Made by a program: the position numbers and the translations under genes
Virus record (IMG/VR): IMGVR_UViG_3300030101_004145
Span: 1-25,595 of that record
Length of the DNA: 25,595 bases
Direction: 5' to 3' (one strand)
Origin: a virus
The notes under the pieces: generated by a model
What the model was told of the DNA's origin: nothing
Database searches by the model: none
Seen by the model: only the letters and a program-made list of their open reading frames with translations
Shown: piece after piece, positions 4,294 through 24,863 of the stretch
Position numbering within the stretch: position 1 is the stretch's first letter
Layout of the letters: the number at the start of each line of letters is the position of its first letter

Positions 4294-4854
4294 TTAATAT
4301 TCAAAGTGAAAGTGAATTTTTACGTTGTCCGTAGCCCCAAAGTTTAAGCCGTAAGAAGACATTTCTTCGGCGTGAAGAACGCCTGCGGCGTACACCTTGT
4401 TGTCTCCCGCCCCCTTTAAGACCATGGGCTCAAAAACAGAACCGTGTTCGCCATGATTTGCGCCGATGGTGTCTGTATTTATTGATGCAGGAAACAAAAA
4501 ACCCACATCGCTGAGAACTGTTTTCAGTGTGCTTCCCCCAGCTGGAGATGCAATGCATGTCTGACCTATATACTCATTCAAAGCAAAGTCAGCAGCAGAA
4601 ATATCCGCTGTTGCGTTTAGCGTGCCTAGCGTGGGTTGGGTGTTCTTTTTAAAGAATAACACACCAACTTTATTTTTTGTTACCAGAAAACTTTCTTTTT
4701 CGCTAGTTCCCAGTCCAGTAGCAGTTAAAAATACACTGGTTAGCTTACACGAGGTTGCAGGGAGCTTTACCTCAGTTAGGTTAAAAACAACATCTCCTGT
4801 AGCGTGTAGACCTGAACTTACCGTTGGTGATATCGTAACGATTTCATACTGCAT
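4294..4854 (-). CDS. Small virion-type protein, paralog A (186 aa)
   Basis: A 186-aa beta-rich protein starting MQYEIVTISPTVSSG. It is clearly paralogous to the next gene upstream (4861-5397): both share IVTI-P-T near the N-terminus, a GDV-FNLT-V-LPA--CKL-SVF block, VLFFKKNTQ-TLG-L-AT-IS-ADF--NEYIGQT, a FEPM-LKG motif, VYAAGV-H and the C-terminal H-HFEY. It lies 9 nt upstream of the scaffold gene. No signal peptide or membrane segment. The pair sits among other small beta proteins before scaffold and capsid, so capsid decoration, head-fiber or neck roles are plausible. The true function is unknown. Confidence 0.8.
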   Translation of the reverse strand: MQYEIVTISPTVSSGLHATGDVVFNLTEVKLPATSCKLTSVFLTATGLGTSEKESFLVTKNKVGVLFFKKNTQPTLGTLNATADISAADFALNEYIGQTCIASPAGGSTLKTVLSDVGFLFPASINTDTIGANHGEHGSVFEPMVLKGAGDNKVYAAGVLHAEEMSSYGLNFGATDNVKIHFHFEY

Positions 4855-4860
4855 ATATAA

Positions 4861-5397
4861 TCAGTATTCAAAGTGAAGGTGAATTTCCACTTTATCAGTA
4901 CCATCAAAATTTGGAGTACCATCATGCACTACCCCTGCAGCGTAAACTTCTGTATTACCCTCGTCACCTTTCAATAGCATGGGCTCGAAAACAGAAAGGT
5001 GCTCCCCGTCCTGACCTGTAGTGCTGGTATCGGCATTGCTTGAAGAAGGGTAGTAGAGGGATACATTGTCAATGACATCGAGGTCCAAAGTATTCGCGTT
5101 GTTTGTCAACGAGAGAAAAGTCTGACCGATGTACTCGTTTGCAGTAAAGTCCGCACTACTGATACTTGCCGTAGCATCCAAAGCGCCTAGAGTAGCTTGG
5201 GTGTTCTTTTTAAAAAACAGAACGCCGATTTTACAATTGTCTTCTTGTGCTGTAGCAGAAGACACCTGCATAAATACGCTAATCAGTTTACATGCCCGAG
5301 CAGGGAGATCAACCTTAGTCAGGTTGAACATCACATCCCCTTCAGAAAGACTTCCAGAAACTGTTGTGGGGGCTATGGTTACAATATCAAAAGGCAT
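4861..5397 (-). CDS. Small virion-type protein, paralog B (178 aa)
   Basis: A 178-aa paralog of the neighbouring 186-aa protein, starting MPFDIVTIAPTTVSGS and ending VEIHLHFEY. The best conserved stretch is around residues 60-95 (IGVLFFKKNTQATLGALDAT and NEYIGQT). Even at DNA level the FFKKNTQ codons are nearly the same in both copies, around 4635-4660 and 5197-5220. Six bases separate its stop from the next ATG. The duplication followed by divergence, mainly in the loop regions, suggests two related subunits of one virion structure. Function unknown. Confidence 0.8.
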   Translation of the reverse strand: MPFDIVTIAPTTVSGSLSEGDVMFNLTKVDLPARACKLISVFMQVSSATAQEDNCKIGVLFFKKNTQATLGALDATASISSADFTANEYIGQTFLSLTNNANTLDLDVIDNVSLYYPSSSNADTSTTGQDGEHLSVFEPMLLKGDEGNTEVYAAGVVHDGTPNFDGTDKVEIHLHFEY

Positions 5398-5407
5398 ATT
5401 CTACCTA

Positions 5408-5815
5408 TTAGCTGCCCCCGTATGGAGCGTCAGAGTTATCGTTACCGAACACACCGTACTCTACCATCTGGTCTACGCGAGTCCCGTACACTTCGTACTT
5501 CTTGTCTGGTGAGACAGGGATAAAGGCAAACTCCCCACCACCGATTTTGGCTACCAAACCTGTATCGGTGTCGTTGTGGATGTAGATGTAGTTCTCTAGC
5601 TCCGTCTCGAGGTTCTTGATGTACACGTAAGCCCGCTCAGAACACTGGTTGGCGATATATATAGCCAAGTCGTTTGTATCTGCCGCCGTCCCTTTTACCT
5701 TCTGGCGGATCAGGCTACCTGAATCCACAGTGAGGTTGGCGTTGACAGTCAGAGCCAGCGGCGACGTAAGCACCGCAGGACTGTTCAGCGTTAGGCTAGC
5801 TTTAATGGTTGCCAT
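5408..5815 (-). CDS. Small virion-type protein (135 aa), family of MAT-T-LTL proteins
   Basis: A 135-aa protein starting MATIKASLTLNSPAVLTSPLA, with the same start style and organisation as the 134-aa neighbour (5815-6219) and the 156-aa protein at 24393-24863. All have an N-terminal LTL/LTE strand, a central K-hYIKN or KYIRV-NLDS segment, and an acidic strand followed by a G--aFiP or G-SYMMGVP turn. The central YVYIKNLETELENYIYIHN part looks like paired beta strands. Its ATG shares one base with the upstream stop (TAATG), so translation is coupled. Probable minor virion or head-decoration protein. Confidence 0.78.
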   Translation of the reverse strand: MATIKASLTLNSPAVLTSPLALTVNANLTVDSGSLIRQKVKGTAADTNDLAIYIANQCSERAYVYIKNLETELENYIYIHNDTDTGLVAKIGGGEFAFIPVSPDKKYEVYGTRVDQMVEYGVFGNDNSDAPYGGS

Positions 5816-6219
5816 TAGGCTTCGAAAATCAAAGCGTACTCTACTGTAAGCGCGGTGCTTACACTAGGGGTGAGCTTGATGTCGTTGTCTGCATCGTGAG
5901 CAGACCAAGGGAAAAAGGCCCAGTCGCCAGAGTATAGGCGTCCAACCTCTTCAGCGTTTACCGTCAAGGTTACATACTCTGTAGCCACTGTGCTGGTGTT
6001 CTTGATGTACACCTTATGCGCTTTAGCAGCAGTGTAGTCAGTCCCATCAAACAGTGTGTACTGAGCCGTAGCGGTAGTCGTCTTGCGACCTACCCCTGAA
6101 GTCTGGTCCAACCCAGTCAACGTACCAGCCTTCGTCAGAGTAGCGGTAGATGAAAGGGACAGCGCGTCACCTGTCAGGTCCGCACTGGAAAGCGTTAGTG
6201 TTGCAGTCGTGGTAGCCAT
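5815..6219 (-). CDS. Small virion-type protein (134 aa), first gene of a promoter-led group
   Basis: A 134-aa Thr/Ala/Ser-rich beta protein starting MATTTATLTLSSADLTG. The middle (KVYIKNTSTVATEYVTLTV) and GDWAFFPWSAHD segment correspond to YIKN and GGEFAFIPVSPD in the 135-aa paralog downstream. It is the first gene after a -7 box (6235-6242) and a 14-bp palindrome at 6220-6233 that directly touches its start codon. It therefore probably starts the transcript that carries scaffold and capsid genes. Likely structural. Confidence 0.78.
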   Translation of the reverse strand: MATTTATLTLSSADLTGDALSLSSTATLTKAGTLTGLDQTSGVGRKTTTATAQYTLFDGTDYTAAKAHKVYIKNTSTVATEYVTLTVNAEEVGRLYSGDWAFFPWSAHDADNDIKLTPSVSTALTVEYALIFEA

Positions 6220-6661: not shown

Positions 6662-7071
6662 ATCTTATCTCTTCTTTTCATGAGTTGTTTTAGTCTAGCC
6701 TCTACTGCGGGTGGGAATCCTTTCTTTTTCCTTTTGATTTTAGTGCCCCGATACTTATCGTAGATAGCAGAAATCTGAGCCATCAGCTTCTTGCGCTCCG
6801 CTACATTCGAGCTACCCTTTGTGTACTTTGGATTGAACTTGCCGCCCTTCTTGTACTCAGCAGGAGAAGACAGCCTCTGCCTGATTCGCTTCGAACCGTC
6901 GTCAAGTCTTTCAATGATATACTCGCCATCACGCAAGCTACCTCCACGCGCAGCGAATTTTTCCTTCAGGCTGGTCAAATCACCCCTGTTAGAGGTGAAC
7001 TCTGGACCCTCGTAAGGAAGGTCGTAATTGATCTTTGACTTCTTGACCTTGAATTTCTTTTTCTTAGCCAT
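6658..7071 (-). CDS. Small basic phage protein (137 aa), function unknown
   Basis: A 137-aa protein starting MAKKKKFKVKKSKINYDLPY. A short structured part follows (GEYIIERLDDGSKRIRQRL), then a Lys/Arg-rich C-terminal helix (KLMAQISAIYDKYRGTK, then KRKKKGFPPAVEARLKQLMK). No signal or membrane segment. Its ATG shares one base with the stop of the 82-aa gene and its stop overlaps the next ATG. The charge suggests nucleic-acid binding or an internal head protein. This is inference from composition. Confidence 0.78.
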   Translation of the reverse strand: MAKKKKFKVKKSKINYDLPYEGPEFTSNRGDLTSLKEKFAARGGSLRDGEYIIERLDDGSKRIRQRLSSPAEYKKGGKFNPKYTKGSSNVAERKKLMAQISAIYDKYRGTKIKRKKKGFPPAVEARLKQLMKRRDKI

Positions 7072-7319
7072 TATCCTTTCGGGTGGTTCGCCTGCTTAAA
7101 CTTGGCCTGCTTGACAGCTCCTGGGTGTGGCTTGTAATCCCCTTTCATCAAGTAGTAACGGCCCTGCTCCTCCATCCAGTGAAAACCTTTGGGGGGGTCA
7201 ACCATAACTATCTTGTTCAAAATTGTAAGCTTAGGGACCTTCCCACCCTTTTTCAAGATTTTCATCTTCTTAGGTGGGCGCCCCACTTGATTTCCGTATG
7301 TTCCTTTTCCTTGTGGCAT
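7071..7319 (-). CDS. Small basic phage protein MPQGKGTYGNQVGRPPKK-type (82 aa)
   Basis: I place the start at the ATG at 7319 (MPQGKGTYGNQVGRPPKKMK) because a longer reading would need a TTG start overlapping the upstream stop. The N-terminus PQGKGTYG-Q-GRPPKK is a pattern I recognise from small conserved proteins of many phages, usually encoded near head genes. The middle holds IVMVDPPKGFHWMEEQGRYYLMKG, a compact Trp/Tyr-rich segment, before a basic tail. Function unknown. The stop is coupled to the next start by a one-base overlap. Confidence 0.78.
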   Translation of the reverse strand: MPQGKGTYGNQVGRPPKKMKILKKGGKVPKLTILNKIVMVDPPKGFHWMEEQGRYYLMKGDYKPHPGAVKQAKFKQANHPKG

Positions 7320-7321
7320 TA

Positions 7322-7687
7322 TCAAAAAGAGCTCATTAATATTTCATCTACACTTTCTTGTACATCAGACTTTGAGGCTTCTATAGCCATCATAATATTT
7401 GCCTGAAATCTTTCTACTTCCTCCCCGTCGTTAAAGATAATAATAGTAGGGACTACTACGATTTTATGCTTCTGCTGTAGGGCTGGGCTCTCTACGATAT
7501 CTATGCGCGAAGTAGTGCAATCGTTGAGTTTTTCAATCCACTCCACCCCGTTGCTCTTATTGAAAGAGGCGTTAAACTCCACGACGCATACACCAGAGTT
7601 GCAGACCTCAGCCTCCGCAACCTCGGCTACATAGGCCGCCGCTGAGAAGAACGCAAATGCTGTAAAGAGGGCAAGTATTGCTTTCAT
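7322..7687 (-). CDS. Exported thioredoxin-fold protein lacking CXXC (121 aa)
   Basis: A 121-aa protein with an N-terminal signal-like segment (MKAILALFTAFAFFSAAAYV). The rest follows the thioredoxin layout: strand VCVVEFNAS, a helix, strand RIDIV, then VVVPTIIIFNDGEEVERFQ with the expected cis-proline of the V-P-T turn and the following hairpin, then a helix. Where thioredoxins have WCGPC this protein has FNKSN, so the redox pair is absent and it cannot work as a dithiol oxidoreductase. Other cysteines (residues ~29, 34 and 57) are present. A binding or chaperone role in the envelope is possible. It sits between the membrane/envelope genes and the basic-protein cluster. Confidence 0.72.
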   Translation of the reverse strand: MKAILALFTAFAFFSAAAYVAEVAEAEVCNSGVCVVEFNASFNKSNGVEWIEKLNDCTTSRIDIVESPALQQKHKIVVVPTIIIFNDGEEVERFQANIMMAIEASKSDVQESVDEILMSSF

Positions 7688-12215: not shown

Positions 12216-14003
12216 TTAAGTATAAATCGAGAAGTACCCGTTGATGTTTCCTTCTATGGCGCTGCGGTTGCTGGATTTGTTGGTCTTGTACGTAATAATC
12301 TCCTGTACTTTTCCGTCAAAGTAAACCGAACTAGAATCTTGGGCTTGACTCGCAATGTAAGTAGAAGTGTTTGCCTCTGTGTTTACCGTTGCTGTAGCCG
12401 AACTCCCAGAAGAGCTGCCATTTAAATGCGCTTGAAAATTGGTGCCGTTATAGTCGAAACCGCTCAAACATTGACCTGATACAGAGGTGCCGAAATGAGT
12501 GCCATTCATCCAAAGAATAATATTGGTTGTGCCGCCACCTGGGGGATCGAAGTTGCCATATATGAAGTTGGAGCTGTAGGGGGAGGCCGAATCTGCCTCA
12601 GCCAACAAATATTGAGTGTTTGAAGCCGCTACAGCCGAATTGTGAACTGTAAAAACGCTTGCATTATTCTGTGATAATTCAACAGCATACGTGGTGGTTT
12701 TTAAATAATCTGATGTCCCATTAAAGTCCAACGCTGGCTTCCCGTTCTCAGTAATTACAGCAGAGCCGTTGTATATCTGCGGCATAGCAGTATAACTAGT
12801 CTGAGAAGCGTCGTTTCCATTACCGCTCTGATCGTACCATTTAGTCACATAAGCATTGTAGTTAGTCCCACTAGGGTTGTTGCAGTAGCTTACAATTGCA
12901 GCAGTATCCAAGTCCCCGTTAGTATCAAATCCGATATCATACTCTGGGTCACTGCTATCGAGCGTCCCCACTGTAGCTGCACTGTCTACTACAATGCGCA
13001 TGCACTTGCTAGCGGTATTGGCAAGCTGACGTACTGAATAGGCGGCCGCTGCTCCTGTGCCATAGCTCTCAGAAAGAAGCCCAGAGGTGGGCGTGCCGAA
13101 GTTGCCGATTTGGTAGTAGGCGTTGACGTTCCCCTCTATGGCGCTTATACTGTGGCTGCTAGTGCTAGGGTACAATATTAGCTCTTGAGTGCTGAACATT
13201 GAATATGTCCAATTAGTTCCAGCCCAATTGTAACCGATAAAATACTGAGTGATTGAACCTGTACTCATATCAGCATTAAAATGCAATAAGTGCTGACTTG
13301 AAAAGTCGTTATATAAATCCTGTCTAGTCTTGCTTGTTAAGCTGTATGCGGATCCGTTTTTACGTATTGCCACATTGCTGTACTCGGCTGTATCAATTAA
13401 GGCGGTTGAGCTTGTTTGCTCTGCTGCTAAAAACCACCCATTGCCAGTCCTTACCACTTGTGACCTGTGAAACAAAACGCTTTTTGCAGTGCTTAAAAAG
13501 CTAACGCTAAAGCCTTTCAGCTCTCCTGCAACCTGAGCTTCTAGCCCCATGTTCGCTCCTGATTTAACGGCTGGCTTGCCGTTTTCAGTAATTACCCCAC
13601 TGCCGTTGTATATCTGCGGTTGACGTGAGCCTAAACTTTGCGTAGCGTTTGCCGCAGTGCCACCTACGTTTGCTTGGTCATACCAAGTAACTAGGTAGCC
13701 GTTAGCGCTTCCGCAATGCGTGGCAATCGCTGAAGTGTCCAGGTCTCCAGAACTATCAAAACCAATGTCTGTCTCGCTGTCGTCGCTGTCCCTGCGGATT
13801 CGCATGCAGCTGCCGCTGTAGTCTTTGTCAAGCTTGCGCACGGAGTAGGCTGCTGCCGCCCCTGTGTACGTGTCAAGCAATAGATTCGTACCAGAGACAA
13901 CGATAGTCACCCCGTTGATATCGGTGATGCTGGCTTTAGCTACCCCGTTGAAATCCCCGAGGCTAGCTACAGCTACCCCGTTTATGTCACTGATATTAGG
14001 CAA
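12216..14003 (-). CDS. Fiber/appendage protein with two lectin-like domains; start is non-ATG (about 595 aa)
   Basis: The frame has no ATG before its first domain. The nearest candidate is TTG at 14003, overlapping the stop of the 495-aa gene; a TTG at 14063 would give 615 aa. Counting from 14063, residues 25-55 carry three INGV/NGVAKASI-type units that are common in phage tail proteins. Two homologous domains follow at about 62-319 and 330-615. Each runs GAAAAYSVR-L, CMRI, DIGFD--GDLDT, then WYDQ, PQIYNGS-VITENGKPA, and ends in SAIEGN-N-Y. This layout matches the LamG-like/arabinofuranosidase-like jelly-rolls found in phage fibers. A carbohydrate-binding, host-recognition role is likely. A fusion to the 495-aa protein by +1 frameshifting would also explain the missing start. 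Confidence 0.8.
   Translation of the reverse strand: MPNISDINGVAVASLGDFNGVAKASITDINGVTIVVSGTNLLLDTYTGAAAAYSVRKLDKDYSGSCMRIRRDSDDSETDIGFDSSGDLDTSAIATHCGSANGYLVTWYDQANVGGTAANATQSLGSRQPQIYNGSGVITENGKPAVKSGANMGLEAQVAGELKGFSVSFLSTAKSVLFHRSQVVRTGNGWFLAAEQTSSTALIDTAEYSNVAIRKNGSAYSLTSKTRQDLYNDFSSQHLLHFNADMSTGSITQYFIGYNWAGTNWTYSMFSTQELILYPSTSSHSISAIEGNVNAYYQIGNFGTPTSGLLSESYGTGAAAAYSVRQLANTASKCMRIVVDSAATVGTLDSSDPEYDIGFDTNGDLDTAAIVSYCNNPSGTNYNAYVTKWYDQSGNGNDASQTSYTAMPQIYNGSAVITENGKPALDFNGTSDYLKTTTYAVELSQNNASVFTVHNSAVAASNTQYLLAEADSASPYSSNFIYGNFDPPGGGTTNIILWMNGTHFGTSVSGQCLSGFDYNGTNFQAHLNGSSSGSSATATVNTEANTSTYIASQAQDSSSVYFDGKVQEIITYKTNKSSNRSAIEGNINGYFSIYT
12219..13880 (-). repeat. Tandem duplication of a lectin-like domain in the fiber gene
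   Basis: Copy 1 is at about 13107-13880, copy 2 at about 12219-13076. They are most alike at the SVITENGKPA region, where stretches of DNA near 12741-12785 and 13578-13622 are nearly the same (for example CAGTAATTAC and CCGTTGTATATCTGCGG). Copy 2 carries extra residues after CMRIVVDS. Confidence 0.75.
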
Positions 14004-15483
14004 GGTCGATGTAGTCTTGTGATGGTGAGAAGAAAATCTTCTGGTCAGCCAAGCAATACCCAACCACCCTGACGAAGTCAGAGGCGTCAGTAGGCTGCGT
14101 CTCAGTCAAATCTCCTGCAGTAGTAGAAATATACAAAGGCTTACCTGCATCCCCTGGGTCTACAGCTACATACCCCACCCCATAAACCAACATCCCGTTA
14201 GTACTAGAGTTACCCCCAAGGGCCATACCTAACAACCCCCTTGTGGTATCCTCACCATCTGCATCGACCAAGGTCCATGTGCCAGAATAGAAAGTGTAAA
14301 CCTTACCAGCTACAGTAGAGTCATCCCCGAACTTTACGATCGTACCCTCGGCCTCACCAGCAGCGTTGACGGCGCTGCTCTGGCTAGCGAACTCAATCTC
14401 CGTCCCCCCAGAGGCCGCAGCCCACTTCAGACCAGTAGACTCGCTGCTGTCGGCTGTCAACACGTAGTTGTTAGTGCCTACAGCCAAGGCGCTAGGGTCG
14501 CCGCTCCCGTCACCAACCAAGATGCTACCCTTGGCAGTTACGTCGACAGAGCTTACCGCAGAGGTTCCATTCCCCAACAAGACGTGGCCGTCACCTAGGG
14601 TGGTGGCCCCAGTACCGCCGCTACCGACAGCCAGAGTAGAAGACAACCCCGCTGCGTTACCTGCGATATTAGATGTGAAGGCGAGCTGCTGAGTATTCCC
14701 GTTTACGCTATCTACTTTCAGTACTTGCCCCGCCGTACCTGGCTGCAAAGGCAGTTGCAAAGTATGACTAGCCGCACCAGCGTGAGGAGACCCTGCGATA
14801 CCGACGTAGTGGGCGTTGCTAGACTCGCAATACAAACGTATCTCCGACTGGTCCGTACCGTCGTTCTTGACATCTAAGAGCTGTCCGTCGTAAGTGAGGT
14901 TGGCCTCAGCTACCACCGCGCTAGTACCGTTTCCAGTCAACACAGAGTTGGCCGCGAGGCTCGTAGCCCCAGTACCGCCGTCAGCTACCCCGAGCGTACC
15001 CGTGATAGAAGAAGCCCCCAAGTCAACAGCCATCTCGGTAGACTCTATAACGAGTCCCCCGTTGGCTTTCAGGTCTGCGCTGAACTCCGTAGAAGTAAGG
15101 TCGAGGCCGTCCCCAGCAGTAAAAGACCCACCCCCACCAGGGATAGTAACGGTAACCTGATCCGAAACAGGCTCGGTAACCGTAACCCCATCCCCAGTAA
15201 ACGTAAACTGAGATACCGAAGAGGTAAGGGTGGTGCTCTCATCAATAACAGTGATGAACTGACCGCCACCGCCTCCGCCGCCACCACCAGTGATAGTGAC
15301 CGTAACGTTGTCCCCCGAAGCCGAAGCTGTAACGCCTGTACCGACAAAGTCGATAGACGAAGCCGAAGAGGTGATATCTCCACCGTCGTCTTTGATTACG
15401 ATATTGCTTCCCCCAGCCTCTCCCTTCGGACCAGTAGAGGTTACGACAATCGTATTGGTAGTATTATTAGTGGAAATAGCCAT
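13996..15483 (-). CDS. Phage tail fiber-like protein with Gly-rich linker (495 aa)
   Basis: A 495-aa low-complexity protein starting MAISTNNTTNTIVVTSTGPK. It has a short collagen-like STGPKGEAGGS segment (~15-26), a run of nine glycines (~67-75), repeated DG---SS-S-i-F-GtGVT--- units, and GGTGATSL-ANSVL-GNGTSAV units (two main copies). The C-terminal part (GTIVKFGDDSTVAGKVYTFY, GLLGMALG, DFVRVVGYCLADQKIFFSPS) is the typical end domain of shaft-type phage fibers. It lies 3 nt after the 142-aa gene. Its last 23 bases overlap the downstream fiber frame at 14003 and may be read into it by frameshift. A structural shaft carrying receptor-binding domains is likely. Confidence 0.85.
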   Translation of the reverse strand: MAISTNNTTNTIVVTSTGPKGEAGGSNIVIKDDGGDITSSASSIDFVGTGVTASASGDNVTVTITGGGGGGGGGQFITVIDESTTLTSSVSQFTFTGDGVTVTEPVSDQVTVTIPGGGGSFTAGDGLDLTSTEFSADLKANGGLVIESTEMAVDLGASSITGTLGVADGGTGATSLAANSVLTGNGTSAVVAEANLTYDGQLLDVKNDGTDQSEIRLYCESSNAHYVGIAGSPHAGAASHTLQLPLQPGTAGQVLKVDSVNGNTQQLAFTSNIAGNAAGLSSTLAVGSGGTGATTLGDGHVLLGNGTSAVSSVDVTAKGSILVGDGSGDPSALAVGTNNYVLTADSSESTGLKWAAASGGTEIEFASQSSAVNAAGEAEGTIVKFGDDSTVAGKVYTFYSGTWTLVDADGEDTTRGLLGMALGGNSSTNGMLVYGVGYVAVDPGDAGKPLYISTTAGDLTETQPTDASDFVRVVGYCLADQKIFFSPSQDYIDLA

Positions 15484-21838: not shown

Positions 21839-22132
21839 CTATTTCTTACTGAATTTTTCTGCGAACCCCCCAGTGTAGTCTTTACCCTCAGAGACTTCGC
21901 CCCCCAAAGTAAGGTCCTTCATCATCTGCTCCAACTTCTGTCTTTCAACCAAAAGCTCTTTGCAATCTACGGCTGTCTGCTTGATGGATTGCAACTCCGC
22001 CTTCCTCGCGCTCCCGTTCACTTCGGAGTCTACAGGCTTCTTAATCTCCTCAATCATATTGTCTATGGCGACCTCCATGCTCCCCATCAACCGCTTCGCT
22101 GCATCCAGCGTAGTAAACTTCTTAGATGGCAT
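21839..22132 (-). CDS. Candidate terminase small subunit (97 aa)
   Basis: A 97-aa all-helical protein starting MPSKKFTTLDAAKRLMGSME. TTLDAAKRLMGSMEVAIDNMIEEI resembles an N-terminal helical DNA-recognition unit, and SIKQTAVDCKELLVERQKLEQMMKDL a coiled-coil oligomerisation helix. That layout fits small terminases. Position also fits, in the same operon as the large terminase with only the T9SS gene between. No conserved signature lets me be certain; a general helical phage protein is the alternative. Its start overlaps the GroES-like gene by 11 nt. Confidence 0.65.
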   Translation of the reverse strand: MPSKKFTTLDAAKRLMGSMEVAIDNMIEEIKKPVDSEVNGSARKAELQSIKQTAVDCKELLVERQKLEQMMKDLTLGGEVSEGKDYTGGFAEKFSKK

Positions 22133-22697
22133 AGAGCAAGTCCTCTACTCGGGTACGGAAGTAAACCTTATCGTTGGCTTTGAACTCGTAGTCCCTGTTC
22201 TCTTTGAACCCGACGGTATCCCCCACAGACAACCCGAGCTCTGCAATCTGATCGCTCATAGCGGCCACTACCCCCGTAGTTCGAGGCTTCTTTTTGAACT
22301 CTACGACTTCGAACATAGCCTCTTCTACTTCCTTTTCAAACGATTCCTGTAATATGCTCCACCCCTCTAGCGGGATGAGCTCGTCTGTTCCTTGGGGCTT
22401 GTAGGCATAGGCGTGGCTGTTCACAGCTACCTTCGGGTCGAAGCTTACCACATAGTGGTCTTTGTAGTCTGCAAACGGCATCCCCCCGTTTATAACTACG
22501 TTGTGGTGGAAATATAACGTGTCCCCAGGTTTTACTGGGGTATCAAACTTCAAGGGGATGTGCTTCACCTCCCCTTCGTTTACTCTGTGCTCAAACTCGT
22601 TGAACTTGGTCTCAATCTTCAGCGTGGTATCGGCGAAGTCGATTTCGTCACGGAACTTTTTTGGGAGTTCCACAACGAAGTAATACAGCATATTCAT
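22122..22697 (-). CDS. GroES/Cpn10-like phage protein (191 aa)
   Basis: A 191-aa protein with two stretches typical of co-chaperonin folds. HRVNEGEVKHIPLKFDTPVK followed by PGDTLYFHHNVVINGG (about residues 37-72) corresponds to the G-V---p--VkpGD-Vyf strands. The C-terminal GVVAAMSDQIAELGLSVGDT followed by VGFKENRDYEF and YFRTRVEDLLYAI matches the G-V-AVs------vGD-V-F-----YE-------R--DiLa order of GroES. Phages carry such proteins to aid folding of capsid proteins by host GroEL (gp31 of T4 is the classic case). Here it is about twice the length of bacterial GroES. TAATG coupling to the 62-aa gene and an 11-nt overlap with the next one place it in the terminase operon. Confidence 0.62.
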   Translation of the reverse strand: MNMLYYFVVELPKKFRDEIDFADTTLKIETKFNEFEHRVNEGEVKHIPLKFDTPVKPGDTLYFHHNVVINGGMPFADYKDHYVVSFDPKVAVNSHAYAYKPQGTDELIPLEGWSILQESFEKEVEEAMFEVVEFKKKPRTTGVVAAMSDQIAELGLSVGDTVGFKENRDYEFKANDKVYFRTRVEDLLYAI

Positions 22698-24392: not shown

Positions 24393-24863
24393 TCAGCTAG
24401 CTACGAAGACCTCTACGCTAACAGAGTTGGTCTTAGGGTCTACAATGATAGACTCTAGATCGTGCAATGCAGCGTCAGTAATCGGGGTGGCAGCATCGTC
24501 GTCACACGCGATGCCTTCGTGAGGTACCCCCATCATGTAGCTCTGCCCTGCAGCCAGCAAAATGCTGGTGCTCCCGTCAGCCGCCCCGTCTTCATCGTTA
24601 GATATCTGAAGGGAAAGCACGACTTCGTTACTAGAATCTAGGTTCGTTACTCGTATGTACTTGGTGTCTTCTAGATCGATGGCGTTGTCTGCAGTATGCA
24701 CTGCCGTCTGGAATGTCGCTATGGTGGTATCGTTATTGGCTGGGCACGTCACCACACGGGTGTATGCCTGAGTTACGCTTGAGATACTGAACGTATGCTC
24801 ACCCCCGCGATTCTTCCCGTTCAGTTCTAGCTCTTCAGTCAGAGATACTGTTAGTGTTGCCAT
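24393..24863 (-). CDS. Small virion-type protein (156 aa)
   Basis: A 156-aa beta-rich protein, MATLTVSLTEELELNGKNRG. Shared style with the 134/135-aa proteins at 5408-6219: LTV/LTL start, then KYIRVTNLDSSNEVVLSLQI and GQSYMMGVPHEG in place of YIKN and GEFAFIP. The C-terminal LESIIVDPKTNSVSVEVFVA completes a beta sheet. Likely a head-decoration or minor structural protein, although it sits far from the capsid gene. It has its own -7 box 4 nt before the ATG. Confidence 0.8.
   Translation of the reverse strand: MATLTVSLTEELELNGKNRGGEHTFSISSVTQAYTRVVTCPANNDTTIATFQTAVHTADNAIDLEDTKYIRVTNLDSSNEVVLSLQISNDEDGAADGSTSILLAAGQSYMMGVPHEGIACDDDAATPITDAALHDLESIIVDPKTNSVSVEVFVAS

Follow-up and report, generated by a model that had tools for sequence, protein, structure and literature searches.

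The locus described here raises the question of where, and by what means, translation of a long phage fibre frame begins when no ATG stands at its 5' end. In the window, by which we mean the whole 25,595-nucleotide stretch of viral DNA analysed, gene A ends on the minus strand with GAC TAC ATC GAC CTT GCC TAA, and the next long frame (12216-14063, minus strand) lies in +1 relative to it. Two starts are available near the junction, TTG 14063 (615 aa) and TTG 14003 (595 aa); an ATG first appears in frame 66 codons inside, counted from TTG 14003. A preliminary description had noted this 595-615 codon frame without an ATG start, in +1 relative to a 495-aa gene, and the open reading frames and the sequence confirm it. 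Comparison of the joint with that of its relatives argues strongly that the frame is a separate gene, here called gene B, which very probably starts at TTG 14003-14001 and overlaps the last 8 bases of gene A. The features referred to throughout are as follows.

13996..15483, minus strand: gene A, a 495-aa fibre protein ending in PSQDYIDLA before TAA (open reading frame; relatives end at the same place).
13999..14409, minus strand: C-terminal domain of A, 137 aa, with a predicted phage-cement-like beta fold (alignments A1/A3, model, structure match).
12216..14003, minus strand: gene B, 595 aa, with three NGV repeats and two GH54-like modules (open reading frame, module comparisons).
14001..14003, minus strand: TTG, with which gene B very probably starts (lines up with the relatives' ATG; upstream in-frame stop in five relatives).
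13996..14003, minus strand: 8-nt overlap TTGCCTAA, made up of the putative gene B start codon and the gene A stop codon (sequence).
14061..14063, minus strand: outer TTG, rejected as a start (unconstrained extra codons; stop in five relatives).
13896..14003, minus strand: N-terminal repeats ISDINGVAVAS / LGDFNGVAKAS / ITDINGV (sequence; alignment A4).
13107..13883, minus strand: module 1, a relative of the catalytic (concanavalin-like) domain of alpha-L-arabinofuranosidase B (1wd3, PF09206, 6sxs).
12225..13082, minus strand: module 2, 34% identical to module 1 (blastp E 1e-34; PHROG 10356).

To place the joint among its relatives, a profile of the last 137 residues of the gene A protein was run against IMG/VR, which gave 80 loci and, from these, 64 distinct junctions, which come from metagenomic contigs and are mutually related. 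The gene A frame stops 0-3 codons past the C-terminal domain match in 64/64 of them. The single fused frame that had been proposed as a check was found in 0/64. NGV-type repeats open the next gene in 63/64 junctions, and the remaining one, Flavobacterium phage immuto (L148), carries an unrelated gene downstream of the A domain. The overlap seen in the window is common: 24 distinct contigs, the window included, have a TTG start at offset -5, that is, an 8-nt overlap of the form NTTG[GC]CT[GA]A. One further relative, L104, has an ATG at offset -5, exactly the position of the TTG (AATGCCTGA), its overlap reading NATGCCTGA instead of NTTG[GC]CT[GA]A. The other 38 junctions start with ATG elsewhere, some in frames unreachable by a +1 shift: at +2 in 23 (TAATG or TGATG, a 1-nt overlap), at +4 in three, at +5 in 11, and at +12 in one (L074), where the ATG follows the stop and keeps to A's own frame.

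These ATG junctions point to the start of gene B. Colinearity of the N-termini begins at the start codon, as in (TTG)PDISKINAL and MPDISKINAV, i.e. (TTG)PDISKINALAIG and MPDISKINAVAIA, or in (TTG)ANISKINAI and MANISKINAL, i.e. (TTG)ANISKINAIALANIAK and MANISKINALALANIAK. Further, the ATG-started B proteins of L092, L097, L100 and L090 align with that of the window from residue 1. Canonical starts stand at the equivalent residue in these homologues: L104 has its ATG on the very same base, and the 38 further junctions have theirs on the same residue. The NGV repeats at the gene B N-terminus (MPNISDINGVAVASLGDFNGVAKASITDINGV) are present as described. The earlier impression that they look like an internal fibre region did not hold, since in dozens of relatives such repeats begin the protein, directly after the ATG. 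In five TTG relatives (L076, L079, L080, L081 and L095), a stop in the B frame lies two codons 5' of the TTG, so that B cannot begin earlier there. Of the explanations entertained at the outset, the rare TTG start is borne out for the inner codon at 14003, by the ATG equivalents and by these upstream stops.

The pattern of divergence changes over at the same place. When the TTG junctions are compared in pairs, divergence at the three codon positions amounts to 0.10/0.06/0.39 in the A frame 5' of the overlap and 0.34/0.22/0.58 in the B frame 3' of it; the frame that it follows switches at the overlap. No B-frame constraint was found among the relatives 5' of the TTG, where divergence tracks A codon positions only. 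Neither the TTG nor the C before the stop varies within the overlap in these junctions, leaving TTG.CT.A as the unchanging bases. Every junction of the TTG class likewise has NTT as the penultimate codon of A, against a background of 19%. Its wobble T had been considered as proof of the start codon, and was dropped because CTT is also usual in the ATG class.

On the A-domain tree, the TTG label requires at least seven changes, five of them forced by well-supported branches, and the A domains of L096 (TTG) and L097 (ATG, -1 overlap) hardly differ. Judged by this tree, the joint has been swapped repeatedly between TTG and ATG versions. The geometry of the overlap offers a reason for the choice of codon. 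In A's penultimate codon, the middle base serves also as base 1 of the B start at -8, and the third base as base 2. In the TTG class, the penultimate residue of A is Leu, Ile or Val, whose codons have a middle T. This would fix base 1 as T and permit only TTG at this spacing, which is probably why TTG has been retained. L104 fits the rule: the penultimate codon of its A protein, which ends in Lys-Asn-Ala (AAG AAT GCC TGA), has an A in the middle, and B starts at ATG. Overlap constraint thus probably explains TTG in place of ATG, on the strength of one contrasting case that sits on a long branch; a GTG-start relative, which would complete the rule, was found in none of the 64 junctions. The joint offers a clean example of the way in which an upstream gene, through an overlapped codon, may impose a rare start codon on the gene that follows. 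It also settles the start codon to annotate in this phage fibre gene family, where gene callers may start wrongly.

By its sequence, the joint belongs to an ordinary pair of tightly packed, overlapping genes in which the TTG start is conserved, and no new mechanism is shown. The B start codon falls within the last 8 nt of gene A in phase +1, as in -8 pairs. Such overlaps (ATGNNTGA) form the third commonest short-overlap class among co-directed genes and lie within the range typical of termination-reinitiation (PMC10666635). Ribosomes that finish A would most likely reinitiate at the gene B TTG through coupling of this kind. They would do so without a Shine-Dalgarno sequence, which is the norm for Bacteroidota and their phages, no such motif having been found ahead of the gene B TTG in the window. 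In Bacteroidetes, the Shine-Dalgarno sequence is used neither in initiation nor in reinitiation (PMC6728339), and the terminase of the window is nearest to those of Flavobacterium and Cellulophaga phages. We infer a joint role for the two proteins in the virion.

Another reading proposed at first, a programmed +1 frameshift at CTT-GCC-TAA that would yield an A-B fibre of ~1,080 aa and leave unshifted A as a headless form, is very unlikely. In its favour, the window shares with 23 further distinct contigs a gene B that is in +1 relative to gene A, and TTG.CT.A is invariant, as a conserved shift site would also be. The B frame is also open 34 codons into gene A, up to a TGA at 14108-14106. The earlier remark that the frame is open upstream is accurate in this respect, but so short a stretch is not evidence of coding. 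However, homologous B proteins start at an ATG in another frame in L090, L092, L097, L100 and L124, while in L074 a gap precedes the ATG and in L104 the ATG takes the very position of the TTG. In L090, L092, L097 and L100 a +1 shift cannot produce B and is not needed. Further, none of the 64 junctions has a fused frame, and the codon in the P site varies (GCC, GGC), as does the one before it (CTT, ATT, GTT). Re-pairing in +1 would be poor, judged by our own reasoning, because the first two positions contain a mismatch whether GCC shifts to CCT or GGC to GCT; in the TTG-class junctions no conserved slippery codon was found that could occupy the P site and re-pair in +1. The ATGs of relatives, the lack of fused frames and the lack of a re-pairing codon together speak against the ~1,080-aa fibre. 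A weaker form, in which a small share of ribosomes slips +1 at TTG[GC]CT[GA]A and makes an A-B fusion besides TTG-started B, seems highly improbable as well. If true, slippage at the joint would give a phage with both free and fused fibres. A literature search joining programmed frameshifting, tail fibres and receptor-binding returned no matching paper.

There is hardly any chance that gene B begins instead at the outer TTG, giving the product of 615 aa: this codon is the first TTG of the frame, but the 20 extra residues are the A C-terminus read out of frame, their codons show no B-frame constraint, and the stop two codons ahead of the inner TTG makes the longer version impossible in five relatives. 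Least credible, at a probability close to nil, is a sequencing or assembly indel that split one gene, for although the window is a single metagenomic record, the same junction stands without gaps in a contig of another record that is 99.99% identical (L003/L022, one base different over 11.5 kb and no gaps) and in L023 (93-94% identical), the joint recurs in 24 distinct contigs (the window and 23 further), and the end of gene A is also the fibre end in the cultured phage immuto, whose tail fibre has the same C-terminal domain.

The protein of gene A bears a collagen-like GPKGEAG near its N-terminus and GGTGAT-type repeats. Its C-terminal domain is conserved and terminal in the relatives (alignments A1/A3), and was modelled with a pLDDT of 80.5. 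With VIA, the model matched Pam3 capsid chain 8hdt_G with Z 8.7 over 119 residues, and other cement proteins with Z of 4-8; the best Foldseek E was 0.05. PF09956 (Phage_cement_2) matched the A domain of one relative (E 4e-4), a Pfam search with the window proteins A and B themselves gave nothing, and a profile search of genome contigs with the A domain gave no confirmed relative. The predicted fold resembles those of phage capsid cement proteins (Pam3, XM1, phi29 gp8.5 base). This raises the possibility of a head fibre, the modelled domain being compatible with either tail or head. In two A homologues (L023 5033-5446; L029 5663-6076), the C-terminal domain occurs twice in tandem within one frame, the second copy being divergent.

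Both modules of gene B are related to the GH54 arabinofuranosidase B catalytic domain. Module 1 matches 1wd3 in a PDB profile search (E 1.7e-4), and blastp joins it to module 2 (34% identity, E 1e-34), which in turn matches PHROG 10356 (E 5e-22). PF09206 was found in 7/21 relatives (best E 2.9e-13) and not in the window protein alone. The full-length AlphaFold model of B has a pLDDT of 59.8 and is usable only at residues ~40-160 and ~320-430; Foldseek matched this low-confidence model to 6sxs (E 1.8e-7), rows with E above 0.01 being counted as background. Set against L023 6033-6215, window 13820-14003 encodes almost the same first ~60 residues of B, after which the modules differ; in the sequences this reads as a module exchange just 3' of the conserved joint.

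Several other features of the window, all on the minus strand, were recorded. A second TTG-start candidate is found at 7071-7325, where TTGA overlaps the stop of 7322-7687 by 4 nt. Two codons inside stands an ATG, a possible alternative start. Sequences like TATATTTGTA or AAATTTGCA lie a few bases 5' of the ATG at 24863, 11697, 12146 and 6219, and Bacteroidota -7-like promoter elements so near the ATG suggest very short leaders. Two pairs of neighbouring small genes at 4294-5397 and 5408-6219 look like tandem paralogues (MQYEIVTISPTVSSG/MPFDIVTIAPTTVSG; MATTTATLTLSSADL/MATIKASLTLNSPAVL). A GroES-like co-chaperonin is encoded at 22122-22697 (PHROG 13932, E 9e-32) and is also present in related Flavobacterium elemo phages.

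Among known systems, the phage capsid cement proteins (DUF2190/PF09956) are likened to the predicted fold of A's C-terminal 137 aa, but the A domain ends a long fibre protein and the sequence similarity is weak. Both B modules belong by sequence with the GH54 alpha-L-arabinofuranosidase B-like (PF09206) phage proteins, e.g. those of Gordonia and Synechococcus phages; where B matches solved GH54 enzymes, it does so mainly over the initial part of their catalytic domain. Programmed +1 frameshift sites of the prfB type have the form CTT TGA C. Unlike these, the A-B joint has neither a re-pairing P-site codon nor a Shine-Dalgarno-like spacer, and its relatives give the second protein its own ATG. 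The closest parallel is the -8 class ATGNNTGA (PMC10666635). The joint departs from it in the TTG that starts B in 24/25 such junctions with no Shine-Dalgarno sequence ahead, and the coupling is one that we infer. It shares with the class its phase and spacing, the second start lying within A's last 8 bases, and in L104 the joint is exactly ATGNNTGA.
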